Positions 1 through 36,174 of a stretch of DNA of 64,000 nucleotides are shown one piece after another. Both the position numbers and the translations under genes were made by a program. Under the pieces are notes generated by a model that was not told the DNA's origin, made no database searches, and saw nothing but the letters and a program-made list of their open reading frames with translations. The stretch's first letter is position 1. Every line of letters starts with the position of its first letter. The stretch spans positions 1-64,000 of the forward strand of contig CALYAY010000004.1 of NCBI GenBank assembly GCA_944393695.1, given 5' to 3'. This DNA is from an uncultured Alphaproteobacteria bacterium (GTDB lineage: Bacteria > Pseudomonadota > Alphaproteobacteria > RF32 > CAG-239).

Positions 1-1284
1 AAGGAAGAATGTTCGGGCATGTATTGCAAAAGCGGCTGTCAAAGCGGTTATGACTGGGATGCAGCGACGCAGAGCTGCACAGAACAGTGCGCTTATAAGT
101 GCACGTTGGACAGTTGTCCGTCAGGTTTTGTTTGTGAAAAGGAGGAATGCTCGGGCAAATATTGCAAGAGCGGATGTGCCGTCAGCAGCAATTGGTATTC
201 CGAAAGTACGGGAGAATGTTGTGCGAGTGCTTATCAATATGATGAATCCAATTGTCCTCTTTTAGGCAATTATCATTGTAGCATGAATACCTGCGGCGGG
301 AAGTATACGGATTGTAAGGAATTACCTTTTCCGCGGAGTGAGCAGAAACTTGTTATCGGAGGGATTACATTCGCCAGTTCGGAAGATTTGTGTCCCGGGG
401 TTAAAGGCTTTATTTATGTGAACCATTCTTATTTGGTGCGCCAGGATGTTATCAATTACGGTGATATAGATTTGGAACAATGTATTGACGCCGATGAAGC
501 CTGTGTTGAGTTGAGCGGTAAAATAGGAACAGCTAAATCCGGAGATGTTATCAGCGTAGATCAGGATATGTATTGCGGCAATATTCGATTTGATGTTGAT
601 GATGGCATTTCAATCAACGGTAACGGACATACTTTGACATTTAGAAAAATTGAAGGATCGGATTTTTTTATCCATCCTGCGATTTATAATGCCGAGTTTC
701 ATATCAATAATCTAAATATTGTCAGTGAGACTGTCGAACTGACAGAGGATGAAAAAAGATTGTTTTTATCTTGTGATTATACAACCTCGGCGAAATTTAA
801 ACACGAAATATTTGAAAATGGTGCCTTCTATCTGGAGGATTCAAAAGTGAGTGTGGGAAAAAATACCAGTGTTGGGACTGGCCCAAGGACAACTGGTGAA
901 AACACTTTTATTTTACAAAGAGATGCCAGCGGCAGTGCCAAGGTTTTGGACGGCGGAACTCTGAATGTGAAACTGGAAGGAGCTGAAAGTTTTAGCTATC
1001 ATTTACAGAATGATGTTACCGTCAATGTTATAAGAGACGGGGTAGCGAATAATTCTGAACAATATAGCTTTGATGGAAATAATATTACTGTAAACAAATG
1101 TTCGAAATCCGCTGGTCAGGATAATTCTTTATTAAACTGGAGGGATGGTGTTTGTCGGCAGGTGACTGTGAACGAAAATATGGGACGGTATTTTACTCCT
1201 CAAGAATCGAATTCTACCTGCGGGGTGGATACCTATCTTAATGATGTTTATGATTCTTCCGTTTGTGACAAGATGAATTTCTGA
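1..1284 (+). CDS. Cysteine-rich repeat surface protein, 5' end missing
   Basis: The reading frame is open from base 1, so the gene begins before the window and the ATG at 19 is internal. The first ~75 residues hold Cys-rich repeats of the type C-S-G-x-Y-C-K-S-G-C followed by Gly-Tyr-Asp-Trp and a C-P-S-G-F-x-C segment. The same unit occurs in the protein at 34297-36174. The rest (~residues 120-420) has alternating hydrophobic residues, including V-I-S-V-D-Q-D and I-S-I-N-G-N-G-H-T-L, suggesting a right-handed beta-helix of the pectate-lyase type. No membrane anchor is seen in the visible part. Paired cysteines imply an exported, disulfide-bonded protein; the DsbD-like gene next door fits this but does not prove a link. 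Function unknown; secretion is inferred because the signal peptide would lie outside the window. Confidence 0.75.
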   Translation, partial: KEECSGMYCKSGCQSGYDWDAATQSCTEQCAYKCTLDSCPSGFVCEKEECSGKYCKSGCAVSSNWYSESTGECCASAYQYDESNCPLLGNYHCSMNTCGGKYTDCKELPFPRSEQKLVIGGITFASSEDLCPGVKGFIYVNHSYLVRQDVINYGDIDLEQCIDADEACVELSGKIGTAKSGDVISVDQDMYCGNIRFDVDDGISINGNGHTLTFRKIEGSDFFIHPAIYNAEFHINNLNIVSETVELTEDEKRLFLSCDYTTSAKFKHEIFENGAFYLEDSKVSVGKNTSVGTGPRTTGENTFILQRDASGSAKVLDGGTLNVKLEGAESFSYHLQNDVTVNVIRDGVANNSEQYSFDGNNITVNKCSKSAGQDNSLLNWRDGVCRQVTVNENMGRYFTPQESNSTCGVDTYLNDVYDSSVCDKMNF

Positions 1285-3692: not shown

Positions 3693-3860
3693 AAAAAATG
3701 CCTTTCTTTTTAATACTTAAACCCTGTAATAAAAATAAAGCACAAATTTATTAAAAAGTAAAAGTATGCCGCAAAGTTATTAAACGAAAAATAACCTGTT
3801 TCTGAATATGATAAAAATATTTTTTGTTTCAATACCGGCCGGGATGTTTTTTTTCTTATT

Positions 3861-3888
3861 TTGAAAATTCTGGGTGTAAGCATAAAAA
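3861..3888 (+). promoter_or_regulatory. Candidate promoter of the rnf operon
   Basis: TTGAAA at 3861 and TAAAAA at 3883, 16 bases apart, lie about 65 bases before rnfC in a very A/T-rich divergent intergenic region (3693-3951). The match is moderate and other A/T-rich pairs exist nearby. A GC-rich palindrome followed by a T-run at about 3836-3855 could be a weak terminator or attenuator. Nothing else is evident in the gap. Confidence 0.3.
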
Positions 3889-3951
3889 AAACATTTTATC
3901 GCCGCCGATAACATGCTATTGCTGTAAACAGGGTGATAAGGCAGGGAATTC

Positions 3952-5445
3952 ATGAATACAATACTGACCGGTGTTTTGTTTTTTTCGGGATTGGCACTAA
4001 CCGTAACCGTTATTTTGCATATTGCGGCACAAAAAACGGCTTCGGGCCAAAAGAATACCGGCCGGCCGGCCGGAACAAATAAAATCCGCCTGGATGATGA
4101 TTTTCCCGATTATCGTCCCCGGGTTCAGAACAAAACTCAGAAAAGAAAAAAATCCCCCTCCCGCAAACGTTTTTCGCTTTCAGGCAGCCTTCATTTCAAT
4201 TCCCTTGTTTCTGAGATTCCTCTTCTGGAGGCCGGTCTTCCCGAATATGTTTACATTCCGCTGAAACTCCCTCATATCAATGCCTTACCCCGGCTGACAG
4301 TCAAAAAAGGCGACAAAGTAAGGGCAGGGAGCCTTCTGGCCCAAAACAAAAAATACCCCGAGGCAGACATTTACGCTTCTGTTTCCGGAAAAATCACCGG
4401 CATCGAAAATATTTCCGATGCCTTTGGCGCGGAAATCCCCGCTGTCATTATAAAAGTTGAAAAAGATGACTTTGAACCCTCAATAGACCTTTCACCGGAC
4501 ATCATCCGGGAAATCCCTTACTCGGAAAAAGAAATCATCTCTAAAATCCGTCATTCCGGCATTTTTTCTCTTGCCGGTGCTGAAAGCATGGAAAACGTTT
4601 TTACCGGAGGGCAAAAAATTTCCCGCCTGATAATAAACGGAATTGATGCGGAACCATTTCCCGGCATCCGCGAAAATCTTCTGTGTAAAAAAGCCGAACA
4701 AATCATCATAGGTGCAAAAATTCTCAATAAAGCTTTCGGCATTCAAAACGCTCTTATTGCCATAAACCGAAAACGCCCGGACATCTTAAAACTTGTCTCC
4801 GGACTCACCCGTCGTTATGTCGGCGTCAATACCAGAAGTTGCCCGGCTTATTATCCCTCCGGACAAAAAAACTTATTAATCACCGCCATCACCGGCCGTG
4901 AAATTTCTGCCGGCCGCCGACCTGAAAATTACGGTTTTATGGTGCTGAATGCCGAGGTCGCTTTGGCTGTTTATGAAGCTGTCTTGAAAAACAAACCTCT
5001 CTGTGAACATTTTATCACCATTAATAAAAACGGTAAATCCACAAGCTTTTGCACTCGTTTGGGCACGCCGGTGGACTTTTTGCTTAAGAAACTATCTCTT
5101 TCGCCCGAAAACGGAAAAATCATTTTGGGAAATGTTTTAACCGGTCGAGAAGTTCTAAACTCCAAAGCCCCGCTGACCGGGCAGGATTCAAAAATCTTAT
5201 ATCTTGTACCTTCCGAACAAATTTCCGGCCCCTGCATCCGTTGCGGCAAATGCCTTGAAGCCTGCCCCCTGCATCTTCAGCCTTATGCCATAGCCTCTGC
5301 CCTCCAAAGCCATGATCAAGACCGGCTAAAACAGCTGCATGCTGCCGATTGCATTGAATGCGGCGCCTGCGCTTTTGTCTGTCCGGCCCGCATACCTTTG
5401 CTTTCCCTCTGTCGGCAAAGCAAAACGGAATTCAAAAACAACTGA
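3952..5445 (+). CDS. rnfC: RnfC-like electron transport subunit with an N-terminal membrane anchor
   Basis: RnfC normally oxidises or reduces NADH at the membrane surface in the Rnf ion-pumping complex. Seen here: a hydrophobic helix at residues 4-25, a basic linker to ~residue 75, the RnfC barrel/lipoyl-like domain, the central Rossmann-type region, and two intact 4Fe-4S motifs (C-I-R-C-G-K-C-x3-C-P and C-I-E-C-G-A-C-x3-C-P) near the C-terminus. Odd features: RnfC is usually not membrane-anchored, whereas RnfB has such an N-terminal helix. The family motif G-L-G-G-A-G-F-P-T is replaced by S-L-A-G-A-E-S-M-E-N, and the usual E-C-E-P-Y reads D-A-E-P-F. The NADH/FMN site is therefore probably altered. 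First gene of a tight rnfCDGEA operon. Confidence 0.88.
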   Translation: MNTILTGVLFFSGLALTVTVILHIAAQKTASGQKNTGRPAGTNKIRLDDDFPDYRPRVQNKTQKRKKSPSRKRFSLSGSLHFNSLVSEIPLLEAGLPEYVYIPLKLPHINALPRLTVKKGDKVRAGSLLAQNKKYPEADIYASVSGKITGIENISDAFGAEIPAVIIKVEKDDFEPSIDLSPDIIREIPYSEKEIISKIRHSGIFSLAGAESMENVFTGGQKISRLIINGIDAEPFPGIRENLLCKKAEQIIIGAKILNKAFGIQNALIAINRKRPDILKLVSGLTRRYVGVNTRSCPAYYPSGQKNLLITAITGREISAGRRPENYGFMVLNAEVALAVYEAVLKNKPLCEHFITINKNGKSTSFCTRLGTPVDFLLKKLSLSPENGKIILGNVLTGREVLNSKAPLTGQDSKILYLVPSEQISGPCIRCGKCLEACPLHLQPYAIASALQSHDQDRLKQLHAADCIECGACAFVCPARIPLLSLCRQSKTEFKNN

Positions 5446-5456
5446 GGAAACAAACC

Positions 5457-6443
5457 ATGCCGGGCGCTCCGTATATCTTTTCTCCTTTAACAACCAGACG
5501 CATCATGCTTCAGGTCATTATAGCTTTATTGCCTCTGGTTGCTGTTGCCCTGGCTGCTTTCGGACTGAGGGCGCTCGTCTTAGTCACAACTGCCGTCGCC
5601 GGCTGCGTAACCTTTGAATATCTGGGCGCTCGCTTTTTGCTTCACCGGCCGGCAGCTGCCTCGGATTTATCTGCCGTTGTCACCGGATTGCTTCTGGCCC
5701 TCTGGCTTCCTGCCGGCTTTCCTCTGTGGATGGTTCTTCTCGGCTGTTTCTTCGCCGTTATCGTGGTCAAAACAGCCTTTGGCGGCATTGGTTGCAATTT
5801 ATTCAATCCCGCACTTGCCGCCTTGGTTTTCCTGTTTCTTTCCTTTCCCGGAGAAACCTCGGCCTGCCTGCAGCCGCATTGGTTTGATTTCTTTTCCGAC
5901 AATGCACAAAAATGCACTCCTGTCCTTGAAAAACTAAAATATCTGTCATGGGAAAACCTTAATACCTCACCCGAAAGTTATAATCTCGCCGGCTTGCCTG
6001 ACTTTGGACAAATGTTAAAAGGAACAACTTGCGGAAACCTGGGCAACATAACCTTTCTCGCCGTTCTGCCGGGCTTAATCTGGCTGCTGGCCCAAAGGAT
6101 CATCTCTTGGCAAATTCCTTTTTATTATCTGATGACATTCTTCATCTTGGTTCTTGTTCATTGGCTGATAAACGGCACCCTTCAAAACGATATTTTCATT
6201 CATTTTTTCTCTGGCAGCCTATGGCTCGGAGCTGTTTTCATGGCCACGGACTACACCACGTCTCCCATGTCCGCACGGGGTAAAATCATCTTTGCCTCCG
6301 GTTGCGGAATTCTAACCGGTCTGATCAGACTTTACGGTATTTATCCTGACGGGGTTCCTTTTGCCATTTTACTGATGAACGCATTTGTTCCACTGTTGGA
6401 TAAAATCTGCACCCCGCGGATCTATGGAACTCCCCGGAGATAA
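5457..6443 (+). CDS. rnfD: RnfD-like membrane subunit lacking the usual flavinylation motif
   Basis: Multi-pass inner-membrane subunit of Rnf/RSX. Family features include N-L-F-N-P-A-L-A near residue 120, A-V-F-M-A-T-D-Y-T-T-S-P, and the C-terminal G-V-P-F-A-I-L-L-M-N-A followed by P-R-I-Y-G. The ATG at 5457 is preferred because GAGG sits 10 bases upstream and the frame then begins after rnfC; an earlier in-frame ATG at 5358 would overlap rnfC by 88 bases. In characterised RnfD a threonine in S-G-A-T carries covalent FMN, just before the loop that aligns with residues ~180-205 here. No such motif is found in this protein. Confidence 0.88.
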   Translation: MPGAPYIFSPLTTRRIMLQVIIALLPLVAVALAAFGLRALVLVTTAVAGCVTFEYLGARFLLHRPAAASDLSAVVTGLLLALWLPAGFPLWMVLLGCFFAVIVVKTAFGGIGCNLFNPALAALVFLFLSFPGETSACLQPHWFDFFSDNAQKCTPVLEKLKYLSWENLNTSPESYNLAGLPDFGQMLKGTTCGNLGNITFLAVLPGLIWLLAQRIISWQIPFYYLMTFFILVLVHWLINGTLQNDIFIHFFSGSLWLGAVFMATDYTTSPMSARGKIIFASGCGILTGLIRLYGIYPDGVPFAILLMNAFVPLLDKICTPRIYGTPRR

Positions 6444-6448
6444 AAAAC

Positions 6449-6940
6449 ATGAAGAAAACACCTTCGCTATTTTACCAAAGCCTCGTCGTTGCCCTCATTG
6501 CCGCAGTTTCTGCTCTGCTCATATCCGTCACTCACGACCTGACGGACGAAGCCCGCCGGCAAAGCACATATTCCGAAGAACAAAAAGCTCTTAAAGAACT
6601 TCTCGGAACAAACTTCGACAATAACCCGTGTGCCGAAAAAATACTCATATCCTCTCCCGACAGTGAGGAAAAACTTGAATTTTACCCCGCCCGGCGTGCC
6701 AAAACGATAAAATCTTTTGCCATAAAAAGTTATTCGGATTTTGCGCCCGGCGGACGAATGGAAATCATGGTTGGTTTCAACATCGACGGCAGCATCATCG
6801 GCAGCAAAATTCTGTCAGCCCCGCATAACATCATAAAACCGGCAGGCAATAAAGCCTCAATCAGCTCCCTGGCTGTTAATGATGCCGTCAACCGTGCTGT
6901 CGGCGCATATAAAAAACTCAATTCCGGAGGCTTACAATGA
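6449..6940 (+). CDS. rnfG: Short RnfG-like subunit with altered FMN attachment site
   Basis: One N-terminal membrane helix (~residues 10-27) followed by a periplasmic FMN-binding-type domain. At 163 aa it is shorter than the usual ~200. The family motif S-G-A-T-x-S-S, where Thr carries FMN, is represented by N-K-A-S-I-S-S at residues 134-140: the acceptor Thr is Ser137 and Ser-Gly are lost. The flanking S-S-x-A-V...A-V pattern keeps the register. The stop overlaps the ATG of rnfE. Identity as RnfG rests on operon position, topology and this motif remnant. Confidence 0.75.
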   Translation: MKKTPSLFYQSLVVALIAAVSALLISVTHDLTDEARRQSTYSEEQKALKELLGTNFDNNPCAEKILISSPDSEEKLEFYPARRAKTIKSFAIKSYSDFAPGGRMEIMVGFNIDGSIIGSKILSAPHNIIKPAGNKASISSLAVNDAVNRAVGAYKKLNSGGLQ

Positions 6941-7524
6941 AAGATAAAAACTTATCTTGCCTGACCAAAGGTATAATCCGGGAAAACCCCGTTTTGACAA
7001 TGCTGCTCGGTCTGTGCCCGGTCTTGGGCGTTTCGACAACGGCCGCCGGCAGCCTGAGCATGGGATTAACCACCCTGCTTGTTCTGGTCTGCTCGGCAGC
7101 CTCTGTATCTTTTCTGAAAAACATTATTCCTCCCCGGTTCCGGCTTTTGTGTTTTCTGATTATTATCTCCGCTTTTGTAAGCACTGCTGATATACTAATA
7201 TCCGCTTATCTGCCCCGATTGCACAAGACTTTGGGAATTTACCTTCCTTTGATTGTCGTTAACGGTATCATTCTTAACCGCACCGAACTTTTTGCCTCGC
7301 AAAACAATCTGAAATCGGCAATTCTTGATGCTCTGGGGATGGGAACGGGTTTTACCTTGATTATTACTGTTTTGGGCATATTCAGAGAAATCGTCGGGGC
7401 AGGGACGTTGCTTGGTTTTCGGCTTCTTCCCGATTCTGCATTAATTCTGCTGCTGCCTCCCGGAGCCTTCTTCGCTTTAGCCTGTTTATTTATCGTTTTC
7501 AACCGTTTACGGAAAGTTTGTTAA
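6937..7524 (+). CDS. rnfE: RnfE-like membrane subunit
   Basis: Six-helix membrane subunit homologous to NqrD. It starts with the family pattern N-P-V-L-x-M-L-L-G-L-C-P, so the first conserved cysteine is present as Cys27. The second conserved cysteine, in I-V-V-N-C-A-I-L-G of relatives, is Gly110 here (I-V-V-N-G-I-I-L-N). In Rnf/NQR the paired cysteines of this subunit and its RnfA/NqrE partner hold a [2Fe-2S] cluster in the membrane. The ATG overlaps the rnfG stop by four bases (ATGA). Confidence 0.87.
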   Translation: MKDKNLSCLTKGIIRENPVLTMLLGLCPVLGVSTTAAGSLSMGLTTLLVLVCSAASVSFLKNIIPPRFRLLCFLIIISAFVSTADILISAYLPRLHKTLGIYLPLIVVNGIILNRTELFASQNNLKSAILDALGMGTGFTLIITVLGIFREIVGAGTLLGFRLLPDSALILLLPPGAFFALACLFIVFNRLRKVC

Positions 7525-7525
7525 C

Positions 7526-8095
7526 ATGAGCTATCTGACAATATTCATAAGCGCCGTTTTTATTAATAACATTGTCTTATCGCAACTTCTCGGCATATCT
7601 CCCTTCATCCGGGCTTCGCAGAAGATATCTTCAGCCTGGGGCTTAAGCGGCACCCTGATTATCGTCATGCCGATTATTTCTATAATTACAAGTTTGATTT
7701 ATCACGATTTTTTGACAAGCTACCGGCTCGGGTTTTTGATAATGCCGGCCTTCATTCTGATTATTGCCGCCATTGTTCAGCTTTTTGAACTCGCCATAAA
7801 AAAAATATCACCGTCTTACAGCCGTACTTTAGAAAATTTCCGCCCGTTTCTGGTTGTTAATTGCGCCGTCTTGGGAACAGCTCTGCTTTCTGCACAAAAA
7901 GACTTTTCCCCGTTGCACTCAGCCTGTTTCGGACTGGCCAATGCCTTGGGCTTTATGTTGGCAATCACCTTATTCGCCTCTCTGCGCGAACGCCTGAATA
8001 ACGCCTCAGTTCCCCCGCTGCTGAAAGGAATACCCTTAAGCTTAATTACAGCCGGCCTGCTCTCAATGGCTTTTATGGGATTCGCCGGGATATGA
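7526..8095 (+). CDS. rnfA: RnfA-like membrane subunit
   Basis: 189-aa membrane subunit, close to the usual 193. The N-terminal pattern I-N-N-I-V-L-S-Q-L-L-G-I-S-P-F matches RnfA except that the conserved Cys25 is Ser25. The second conserved cysteine is kept as Cys113 in V-V-N-C-A-V-L-G. Together with Gly110 of RnfE, this leaves two of the four cysteines expected for the intramembrane [2Fe-2S] site. It is the last gene of the operon; the rnfB gene that follows rnfA in CDGEAB-type operons is absent, and the next gene is on the other strand. Confidence 0.88.
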   Translation: MSYLTIFISAVFINNIVLSQLLGISPFIRASQKISSAWGLSGTLIIVMPIISIITSLIYHDFLTSYRLGFLIMPAFILIIAAIVQLFELAIKKISPSYSRTLENFRPFLVVNCAVLGTALLSAQKDFSPLHSACFGLANALGFMLAITLFASLRERLNNASVPPLLKGIPLSLITAGLLSMAFMGFAGI

Positions 8096-8103
8096 GATTA
8101 AAT

Positions 8104-8754
8104 TTATTTGTTAACTTTGTTTAATAACTCTTTGATTTTTAATATGATATTATCAAACATCTCATAAGTCAGCACTCCGGTATTAATATTATAACGCGAA
8201 GTATGATAAGAATCCAACAACAGCAGATTATGCTTATCCAGGCAATGCAAGGCCCCGTGTTGAAACTTAAAAGCCGACTTTTTATACCCCAGAACACTCA
8301 AAACGGCATTATGCGAAATTCCGCCAAGCGATAAGATAATTTTAAGCTTTTTCATATCGTTAAGCTCATCAATTAAAAAATGACCGCAAGTTTTTATTTC
8401 ATCACCGGTAGGTTTGTTTTCCGGAGGAACACAACGCACGGAATTCGTAACCCGCACATTAATCAACTCAAATCCGTCATCCTTTCTTTTTTGATAATCA
8501 CCTTTGGCCAGCCCGTGTTTTTTTAATATCGGATAAAGAACATCCCCCGCATAGTCATTGGTAAAGGGGCGGGCGGTCTGATTAGCCCCGTTTAATCCCG
8601 GTGCCAACCCCACAATCAGCACTTCGGCCTCAATCGGTCCGAAAGACGGAACCGGCCCGTTAAAATAAGTCGGAAACTTAAGCCGGTTTTGCTCTCTGAA
8701 TTCAACCAACCGCGGACAATTTGGGCAATCTCTTCCCGGACATTCAAAACTCAT
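8104..8754 (-). CDS. Family 5 (UDGb-type) uracil-DNA glycosylase
   Basis: Removes uracil or related deaminated bases from DNA. Motif A reads G-L-A-P-G-L-N-G-A-N-Q-T-A-R-P-F-T-N-D, the UDGb form in which the catalytic Asp of other families is replaced by Ala. The C-terminal motif H-T-S-R-Y-N-I-N-T-G corresponds to H-P-S-x2-N-x2-T-G. Cysteines at the N-terminus (C-P-G-R-D-C-P-N-C) and in V-R-C-V-P-P-E-N-K-P with a later T-C would hold the family's 4Fe-4S cluster. Single gene, convergent with rnfA. Confidence 0.88.
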   Translation of the reverse strand: MSFECPGRDCPNCPRLVEFREQNRLKFPTYFNGPVPSFGPIEAEVLIVGLAPGLNGANQTARPFTNDYAGDVLYPILKKHGLAKGDYQKRKDDGFELINVRVTNSVRCVPPENKPTGDEIKTCGHFLIDELNDMKKLKIILSLGGISHNAVLSVLGYKKSAFKFQHGALHCLDKHNLLLLDSYHTSRYNINTGVLTYEMFDNIILKIKELLNKVNK

Positions 8755-34160: not shown

Positions 34161-34296
34161 GGGTCAAATGTCAGCCTTATTTTCTTCTAGTCAGATTTTC
34201 CGTCATATAGCCAAATTATCTATTTACAACCATTTTAAAATCTGTTATCATGAGATTCGTGAAGACAAATGTAATTTAAGATTAAGAGGTGTTATT

Positions 34297-36174
34297 ATGA
34301 TGAATAAGACTATTCTCATGTTGTCGGCTTCCTGCATGTCCATTATTGCCGGAGCTGATTGGTGTTGCGCTGACTTTAATCATTTTGACACTTCCCCGTC
34401 TTTTATTCCCGCCGGAGTTAAATCACACGTTTCCACACACACTTCACACCTCACGGCCGGACATTTGTCTTCACCTGAAGATTTTAATAAGGGTGATAAT
34501 AAAAATATCCAACTCGCAGCCGCCTGCTTCGTTACTGACACAACCAACTGTTCCGGCAATGAATTCGCCAACGCCGACAGTGATGATAATGACGGCGGCG
34601 TACCTCCCAGAGGCGATGACTACGACCTCGACAATGCCGAACGCTGCCGCCAGGAAGGCTACACCCAAACCTCCTGTCCCGAAGGACAGGAACCTTCCAA
34701 CTTCTGCCCCTACGACAGCAATTATTTCGAAAAATGTGTTTCCTCCTGTCCGAGTAATTACGTCACCTGTGAAGTCCCCTACTATGGCGTCGGCGAAGAC
34801 TGTGACGGAAAATATGCTTCCTGCGAAAAAGACACCGAACGTGCCTGCAAAGAGGAAAACCCAAATTACACAAACTCTTGTGATTACGGCCAACAATTAA
34901 GCGACGACCGTTGCTCATACGATAGCTCTTACGGCACCTGCTGCAACACCTGTGCCGGATATCCCTATACGAAAGACAACATCCCCGAGGGCTATGTCCA
35001 GGATGGACAATCCTGCATCGGCTGCGACGGCCAGGAACATTACAAGATTAAGCCCAACCCCTGTGACGGGTTTATGGACTGCGGTTCCATGGGACCCGAA
35101 ATCGGGGCAAAATCCTGCCAATCAGGAAATCAGATAAAATACGATAACTGCAAACCTTGTCCAAACCTCGGCAGCCTCACCTACTGTCCCGCACCTTTCA
35201 CCTGCTCCTACGAGGATTGTTCCGGCCTTTATTATAAAACCGGTTGCCAACCAGGATATGACTGGAACCAAAGCTCCCAAACTTGCACAAAGCAATGTGC
35301 CTATGAATGTACTTACAGCAACTGCCCCTCACCCTTCACCTGCCGCTATGAGGACTGCTCCGGTAAATACTGCAAAACCGGCTGCCAATCCGGCTACGAC
35401 TGGAACTCAAGCTCCCAAACCTGTACCAAACAATGCTCAGCCGACTACCAATACACCTGCACCGGCACCGGTTACGCCGGCGGCTCTGGTACATCCTGCA
35501 ACGGAAAATACCAAAGCTGCATTTGTTCTTCAAACTATCAGTGGAACGGAAACGGTTGTTCGGAAGTGCCAGAATATCAAAATGAATGCATGAAAGGAAC
35601 AGAAATTGGTTATATCCTCTATAGTGATATGACACGTTCAAAAAATTTAACCAGTGGTAAAACACCTATTGGTATTGTTGTTTGTTCTTATGAAAACAAT
35701 ACTGGAGGACAGGCCATGGCTCTGAAAACAATTGGAAATCTCAGCTGGGAAAAAACATCTATATGGAATTCGGGCAAAGATATTCCCGAATTAGAAAATT
35801 TAAAATCAACAGGAGCCGCTGTAATGGATATAAAAAGCTGTAACAACACAAATATTATAACTAACGCAGGAAATAGTAGTCAATATCCTGCAGCCTGGGC
35901 TACAAAAGATTATAGTACAGCAGGAACATCTGCCGGAGATTGGTGTCTTCCTGCAGCAGGGATATTTAGAAGCATAGATTATTTTCTGGATCTGGTAAAT
36001 AGTGGTTTTTCCCTTGTTGGAGGAGAAAAATTAGGCAGAGCTTCATACCTTTGGTCTTCAACTGAAATGGAATATGATAATTCCAATCGTTCAATGTTTG
36101 ATTCCAATCTTTATGGCCTATATCCGGGGACTAAAGGAAGCAGCTACGAGGTCCGGCCTGTCATCGAATTCTAG
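34297..36174 (+). CDS. Secreted cysteine-rich repeat protein with a C-terminal DUF1566/Lcl-like domain
   Basis: ATG 34297 (AGAGGT upstream) opens with a signal peptide ending near A-D-W-C-C-A; an ATG at 34168 in the same frame would add 43 residues with no export signal. Residues ~80-430 hold many Cys-rich modules with C-S-G-K-Y-C-K-T-G-C, G-Y-D-W-N and C-P-S-P-F-T-C. The C-terminal ~190 residues contain G-D-W-C-L-P-A-A, Y-L-W-S-S-T-E and V-R-P-V-I-E-F, the pattern of DUF1566/Lcl_C domains. It is paralogous in its repeats to the partial protein at 1-1284 but has a different C-terminal domain. Likely a surface or secreted protein; ligand unknown. Confidence 0.8.
   Translation: MMNKTILMLSASCMSIIAGADWCCADFNHFDTSPSFIPAGVKSHVSTHTSHLTAGHLSSPEDFNKGDNKNIQLAAACFVTDTTNCSGNEFANADSDDNDGGVPPRGDDYDLDNAERCRQEGYTQTSCPEGQEPSNFCPYDSNYFEKCVSSCPSNYVTCEVPYYGVGEDCDGKYASCEKDTERACKEENPNYTNSCDYGQQLSDDRCSYDSSYGTCCNTCAGYPYTKDNIPEGYVQDGQSCIGCDGQEHYKIKPNPCDGFMDCGSMGPEIGAKSCQSGNQIKYDNCKPCPNLGSLTYCPAPFTCSYEDCSGLYYKTGCQPGYDWNQSSQTCTKQCAYECTYSNCPSPFTCRYEDCSGKYCKTGCQSGYDWNSSSQTCTKQCSADYQYTCTGTGYAGGSGTSCNGKYQSCICSSNYQWNGNGCSEVPEYQNECMKGTEIGYILYSDMTRSKNLTSGKTPIGIVVCSYENNTGGQAMALKTIGNLSWEKTSIWNSGKDIPELENLKSTGAAVMDIKSCNNTNIITNAGNSSQYPAAWATKDYSTAGTSAGDWCLPAAGIFRSIDYFLDLVNSGFSLVGGEKLGRASYLWSSTEMEYDNSNRSMFDSNLYGLYPGTKGSSYEVRPVIEF
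35180..35434 (+). repeat. Two tandem coding repeats of the Cys-rich module
   Basis: Two adjacent copies of ~126-129 bases encode the same ~42-residue module (C-P-x-P-F-T-C, E-D-C-S-G, K-T-G-C-Q, G-Y-D-W-N, S-S-Q-T-C-T-K-Q-C). Nucleotide identity is high, suggesting recent duplication or gene conversion. Confidence 0.8.

Follow-up and report, generated by a model that had tools for sequence, protein, structure and literature searches.

An rnfCDGEA operon without rnfB and with altered cofactor sites in an uncultured alphaproteobacterium

Introduction

Can an Rnf operon that has lost rnfB and many of its cofactor-binding residues still be held by selection, and, if so, as what? This question is raised by the rnfCDGEA locus of an uncultured Alphaproteobacteria bacterium (RF32; CAG-239), which lies in a stretch of 64,000 nucleotides (assembly GCA_944393695.1, contig CALYAY010000004.1, positions 1 to 64,000, forward strand), hereafter called the window. 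The original prediction, made from the letters of this DNA, held that the genes are intact, that redox sites are changed throughout the complex and that it may do something other than transfer electrons from ferredoxin to NAD+. The present analysis found that the operon fits neither an ordinary Rnf nor a simple pseudogene.

Results

The five plus-strand genes rnfC, rnfD, rnfG, rnfE and rnfA are tightly coupled at positions 3952-8095, and the predicted genes, their frames and each residue named for them were verified. In relatives, the order is a divergent PIPS-like gene, apbE, an rseC-like gene, rnfB, rnfC, D, G, E, A and a divergent uracil-DNA glycosylase gene (UDG). The window keeps both outer genes in place, and apbE, rseC and rnfB are gone from between them, with no match to any of the three anywhere in the window; in relatives, about 2.4 kb carrying apbE, the rseC-like gene and most of rnfB sits at the place equivalent to 3693..3951. 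The absence of rnfB was thus rightly predicted, but its usual place was not, since in this lineage rnfB precedes rnfC and does not follow rnfA. The features of the locus are as follows.

3693..3951, strand not assigned: deletion site; the fused rnfC lies 259 bp from the PIPS-like gene
3952..4035, plus strand: RnfB remnant, its N-terminal membrane helix (28 amino acids), with which the RnfC protein now begins
4036..4203, plus strand: basic linker from the RnfB helix to the RnfC body (residues 29-84), Lys/Arg-rich, predicted to be disordered
4204..5445, plus strand: rnfC body, flavin mononucleotide (FMN)/NAD loop broken, two [4Fe-4S] motifs intact
4558..4605, plus strand: RnfC loop, residues 203-218, S-L-A-G-A-(3 deleted)-E-S-M-E-N; relatives G-M-G-G-A-G-Y-P-T
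5233..5382, plus strand: RnfC cluster cysteines C428, C431, C434, C438, C467, C470, C473 and C477, 8 of 8 kept
5457..6443, plus strand: rnfD, 328 amino acids, least altered subunit, start best set at 5457
5898..5921, plus strand: RnfD flavinylation site, lost, D-N-A-Q-K-C-T-P; relatives D-x-x-T-[GSA]-A-T
6449..6940, plus strand: rnfG, 163 amino acids, FMN-binding domain truncated, no FMN_bind match
6851..6859, plus strand: RnfG K-A-S at the site of the Thr for covalent FMN attachment; relatives [ASG]-A-T
6937..7524, plus strand: rnfE, with C27 in place and G110 (7264-7266) at the position of the second [2Fe-2S] ligand
7526..8095, plus strand: rnfA, with S25 (7598-7600) at the position of the first [2Fe-2S] ligand and C113 (7862-7864) in place

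The host genome (1.75 Mb) is 100% complete and 0.6% contaminated, a draft in 38 contigs with the window on a contig of 102 kb, and its nearest genomes are members of one family, of about 1.3-1.9 Mb, which probably resemble gut Alphaproteobacteria of the RF32 type. Neither RnfB, apart from its membrane helix on RnfC, nor ApbE was found in this whole genome. The FMN_bind domain had no match in it, and neither did PF00175 of FNR/NqrF-type reductases, which was found in 10 of 14 control genomes. RnfD occurs in 80 of the 152 family genomes, and the window's genome is the sole one of those 80 without ApbE. No normal rnfB, no apbE and no second rnf or nqr operon was found elsewhere in the genome. An 83-residue stretch that resembles RnfB (G000:C2:33435, E 7e-4) lies inside another frame of 450 amino acids and was not accepted as RnfB. 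A lost supply of reduced ferredoxin was also rejected as the cause, because this genome and nearly all others of the family have PFOR, whether they carry Rnf or not.

Residues were aligned to 33-34 relatives with a complete operon, to solved Rnf chains and, by position, to the A. woodii Rnf, with the roles of ligands and flavin sites taken from PMC11889175. All four [2Fe-2S] ligand positions of RnfA and RnfE are Cys in 34 of 34 functional relatives; two of the four are left in the window. RnfA falls below the rnfA TIGR model (185.7 vs a cut-off of 229.3), and RnfE below the rnfE TIGR model (191.5 vs 213.4) and above the RsxE model (195.2 vs 184). RnfD scores 278.9 bits with TIGR01946 (cut-off 207.05) and retains the riboflavin-site residues N114, N117 and D265, while T154 counts as the surviving Thr of its flavinylation motif only with a one-residue shift. 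RnfG reads N-K-A-S where the motif of relatives has, in this alignment, mostly an acidic residue before it, and it has lost about 37 residues in frame, E-T-P-G-L-G among them. Its AlphaFold model keeps the stalk and sheet, which are most of the fold, with a disordered flavin-attachment loop, and the protein scores 47.2 against the rnfG TIGR cut-off of 102. RnfC scores 277.6 bits with TIGR01945 (cut-off 245.95) and retains its fold in AlphaFold (Z 36.8 to 8ahx_C, with a root-mean-square deviation of 8.5 over 411 residues). Its FMN/NAD site is no longer normal, the GMGGAGYPT loop being broken and ECEA..TADDRLM altered. Each substitution that had been predicted in RnfA, RnfE, RnfD, RnfG and the RnfC loop was therefore borne out as a true loss and not a shifted residue, although the claim that most cofactor-binding residues are gone proved slightly too strong, given that the RnfC clusters and RnfD N114, N117 and D265 remain.

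Most of the missing RnfB has left no trace, but its membrane anchor was found on RnfC. Residues 1-28 of RnfC gave a best local score of 76 to RnfB of the same-genus genome G010, compared with a maximum of 49 in 500 shuffles, and in a comparison of the RnfC N-terminus with 5680 M-starting 45-mers in the loci, the 25 best, itself excepted, were all RnfB. One transmembrane segment is predicted in this start of the protein. As residues 1-28 are the RnfB membrane helix, the deletion joined the RnfB anchor to RnfC; the C-terminal side of the RnfB helix is cytoplasmic and so is RnfC, so that the topology of the fusion is consistent. The AlphaFold confidence measure pLDDT is below 50 across RnfC residues 1-86, and the helix is unplaced in the model because the input alignment did not contain it.

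Alignment columns that are otherwise invariant are changed in the window at 34% in RnfC, 19% in RnfD, 48% in RnfG, 26% in RnfE and 30% in RnfA, compared with a leave-one-out maximum for any other genome of 6-12% (2% for RnfA), so the alterations are not due to chance; in all five subunits the loss reaches beyond the cofactor sites. In the Rnf tree, the window is nested in its genus (support 92/80) on a terminal branch of 1.84 vs about 0.1-0.2 in genus mates, and the operon evolves about tenfold faster than theirs. The species-tree branch is ordinary (0.13), and no acceleration is seen in the flanking PIPS and UDG genes or in the distant GatB. The operon is the lineage's own rnf, vertically inherited; horizontal gain of a divergent operon is disfavoured by synteny, by the tree and by the RnfB remnant, which is nearest to a same-genus RnfB.

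Neutral change simulated to the same protein divergence produced a mean of 19 stop codons with a minimum of 11 (40 runs), and about 23 frameshifts are expected if one indel per 20 substitutions is assumed. The window rnf genes contain no stop codon and no frameshift, and their indels are in frame. In the codon model, omega = 1 on the window branch was rejected for each of the five genes (2dlnL, twice the log-likelihood difference, of 8.8-49.6), although the omega values are only qualitative and unusable as numbers because synonymous sites are saturated. Changes at otherwise invariant sites in RnfA and RnfE were more conservative than neutral (p about 0.001). Together, these results indicate that the frames were selected through most of the accelerated phase, in agreement with the original prediction that they are not decayed, and the changes are unlike the noise of a pseudogene.

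A second RnfB-less lineage was found in genus g13, whose loss of rnfB is independent of that in the window. Two of its species, G022 (L066 3539-7570) and G035 (L068 2533-6558), have apbE-rnfCDGEA with apbE directly before rnfC; there is no rseC at the operon, and no RnfB was found anywhere in either genome. As in the window, [2Fe-2S] ligands are lost (both in RnfA and one in RnfE, i.e., three of the four) and the frames are intact, in both species. However, g13 keeps ApbE, the flavin motifs, the RnfC FMN loop and the riboflavin residues, and its subunits differ in constraint. Between G022 and G035, identity is 30% for RnfA and 38% for RnfE, the fastest to diverge, vs 76-80% and 69-78% in pairs at similar GatB distance, whereas RnfC, RnfD and RnfG are at normal constraint (60, 62 and 60% vs 68-71, 63-70 and 48-58% in comparable pairs). 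This pattern makes g13 a candidate for a one-limb Rnf, in which electrons would run from NADH through RnfC and RnfD to RnfG and the ferredoxin-RnfB-RnfA/E limb would have been abandoned, with direction and acceptor both inferred.

Several neighbouring genes were also noted. A DsbD-like protein (DsbD_N, a membrane domain and a thioredoxin domain with CLTC) is encoded near the rnf region at 1372-2982 on the minus strand, and the DsbD-PIPS pair adjoins rnf in most fetched relatives. The UDG gene (8104-8754, minus strand) is family-4-like and highly conserved in the family, and in most relatives it bounds the rnf region on the downstream side. Cys-rich repeat proteins, with units of the CPSGFxC..CSGKYCKSGC type, occur at two places in the window (19-1284 and 34168-36174, plus strand) and apparently form a secreted or surface family. 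The promoter and terminator scan gave no signal usefully above shuffles.

Discussion

Without an RnfB entry, covalent flavins, a complete [2Fe-2S] site or a normal RnfC FMN site, the operon cannot encode a canonical ferredoxin:NAD+ pump. The reading that we favour, and consider somewhat better than even, is that it encodes a maintained Rnf derivative that would be incapable of such pumping and would retain a short redox chain, its actual job being inferred. One or more deletions took away apbE, rseC and the portion of rnfB that encodes its soluble domain, with the RnfB helix fused in frame to RnfC as a result, and selection kept the five frames open while cofactor-binding residues were lost. 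RnfA, RnfE, RnfD and the truncated RnfG would still assemble in the membrane, in line with the activity that Bacteroides membrane subunits have without RnfB or RnfC (PMC12718326), and RnfC would be tied to it by the salvaged helix; in the A. woodii Rnf, the RnfB membrane helix packs against the RnfG helix. The U-shaped pathway from ferredoxin through RnfB, RnfA/E, RnfG, RnfD and RnfC to NAD+, and the Na+ pump coupled to it, could not run in such an assembly. Instead, the two [4Fe-4S] clusters of RnfC and the non-covalent riboflavin of RnfD may form a short chain, which is the least certain step, moving electrons from a cytosolic donor to some acceptor in the membrane or periplasm and pumping no ions. 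Reduced ferredoxin could be that donor, since PFOR is present.

The wider claim, that this is a selected Rnf descendant devoid of ferredoxin input, flavinylation and a transmembrane iron-sulfur relay, whose membrane assembly with helix-anchored RnfC serves a new function, is put forward only tentatively, as something less probable than not. The suggestion in the original prediction of a complex without ferredoxin-NAD+ transfer is supported by the true loss of the residues, by the lack of the missing parts elsewhere and by the undecayed frames; the alternative function it allowed for is a possibility.

Besides the saturation of synonymous sites, several observations weigh against a maintained complex. 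The changes in RnfC, RnfD and RnfG were not significantly more conservative than neutral, and the sample has one genome per species, which bears on maintenance within species. The whole operon is lost in the genus members G005 and G009; in G009 it has been cut out cleanly from the corresponding site, so that the PIPS-like gene and UDG are adjacent (L102 2058-3563). No rnf operon was found in the incomplete same-genus genome G008. Rnf is therefore dispensable in the genus, and a slow end-phase is possible. Loss of the RnfC loop alone is also no proof of lost function, because the Desulfovibrio-type RnfC (L069-L082) likewise lacks the GxGGAGxPT FMN loop, with about 11 residues missing, and keeps both 4Fe-4S motifs. 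The losses of the operon in the genus lend some weight to a relic in decay, useless since the loss of rnfB and apbE, its frames open by chance or because truncated membrane proteins would be harmful; the many invariant residues lost across the five subunits and the truncation of RnfG point the same way. We nevertheless regard this as unlikely, as about 19 stops (at the minimum 11) and some 20 frameshifts would be expected and none is seen, omega = 1 is rejected, the RnfA and RnfE changes are conservative and all eight cluster cysteines of RnfC are kept.

Reuse without redox chemistry, in which the RnfA/E/D membrane core would act as an ion-conducting or scaffold complex and redox loss would be tolerated, accounts for the same conservative changes, and in Bacteroides the Rnf membrane subunits are active without RnfB or RnfC (PMC12718326). 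In addition, all seven gate/Na+-path residues of RnfE and L22, Q85, E88, P107 and N112 of RnfA are kept although two [2Fe-2S] cysteines are lost. However, T110, T111 and the gate residue L108 of RnfA are changed, the loss of T110 and T111 also telling against the favoured derivative, and ion-path residues are kept at 12 of 16, a rate equal to the background of 70-74% retained across all invariant RnfA/RnfE columns, so that selective conservation of the Na+ path is unsupported for either account. Gradients would moreover dissipate through an uncoupled pore, and the kept RnfC clusters would be left without a reason, which makes this reuse decidedly improbable. An ordinary Rnf with parts encoded elsewhere, or an artefact of assembly or contamination, draws on the draft state of the genome, but the completeness and contamination values, the absence of RnfB, ApbE and FMN_bind throughout the genome and the own-lineage synteny and tree position largely refute it, and an assembly error is impossible as the cause of Cys and flavin motifs lost in several subunits at once; we give it hardly any credence.

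Comparison with known systems

We therefore compare the maintained derivative with the systems nearest to it. With the solved Rnf complexes (A. woodii 9eri, C. tetanomorphum 7zc6 and A. vinelandii 8ahx), the window shares the five subunits, which are homologous and in CDGEA order, the RnfC fold, RnfC and RnfD scores above their NCBIfam cut-offs, and the cluster motifs of RnfC and riboflavin residues of RnfD. It differs from them in having no RnfB (the helix excepted), ApbE, flavinylation motifs or RnfC FMN loop, in losing two of four [2Fe-2S] cysteines, in its truncated RnfG FMN domain and in RnfA, RnfE and RnfG scoring under their TIGR family cut-offs.

The Desulfovibrio-type Rnf, which gave the only matches in a contig scan with the window RnfD as query, resembles the window in its RnfC, and the NAD+ reactivity assigned to that RnfC may be mistaken. 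Unlike the window, it has an RnfG with an FMN domain and SGAT motif, and its redox groups are not stripped. Single-pathway NQR/RNF-like systems are likewise partial Rnf/Nqr complexes that use part of the electron path, but they need an RnfD-like protein fused to the NAD-binding PF00175 domain as well as flavinylation (Meheust et al. 2021, PMC8238504), whereas the window RnfD has PF03116 only and its genome has neither PF00175 nor FMN_bind; g13 fits these systems better than the window does.

In the origin proposed for Na+-NQR (Reyes-Prieto et al. 2014, PMC4014512), an rnf operon loses rnfB, its RnfC loses the NAD/FMN site and a gene fusion puts the RnfB helix to new use; the window repeats these three steps in another lineage. 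The window differs from Na+-NQR in lacking NqrF and a duplicate operon, in losing flavins that NQR keeps and in its RnfC, which retains all cluster cysteines whereas NqrA has no Fe-S clusters. Judged by the features tested here, the operon is not an NQR and not a functional Rnf. No RnfB-less, ApbE-less Rnf operon and no living intermediate of the proposed NQR origin was found described in the literature searched, subscription papers lying outside the search. The window operon would be a living instance, in a different lineage, of the intermediate long postulated on the way to the NQR sodium pump, and g13 would stand at an earlier point, having abandoned only the RnfB-RnfA/E limb and keeping RnfC-D-G and ApbE under normal constraint. 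If the window operon is indeed a selected descendant with a new function, it and g13 would show that Rnf complexes without RnfB have evolved more than once and can persist, a step that the proposed NQR origin includes. What an Rnf can do without RnfB becomes directly testable in this natural experiment, which separates the two limbs of the U-shaped path.

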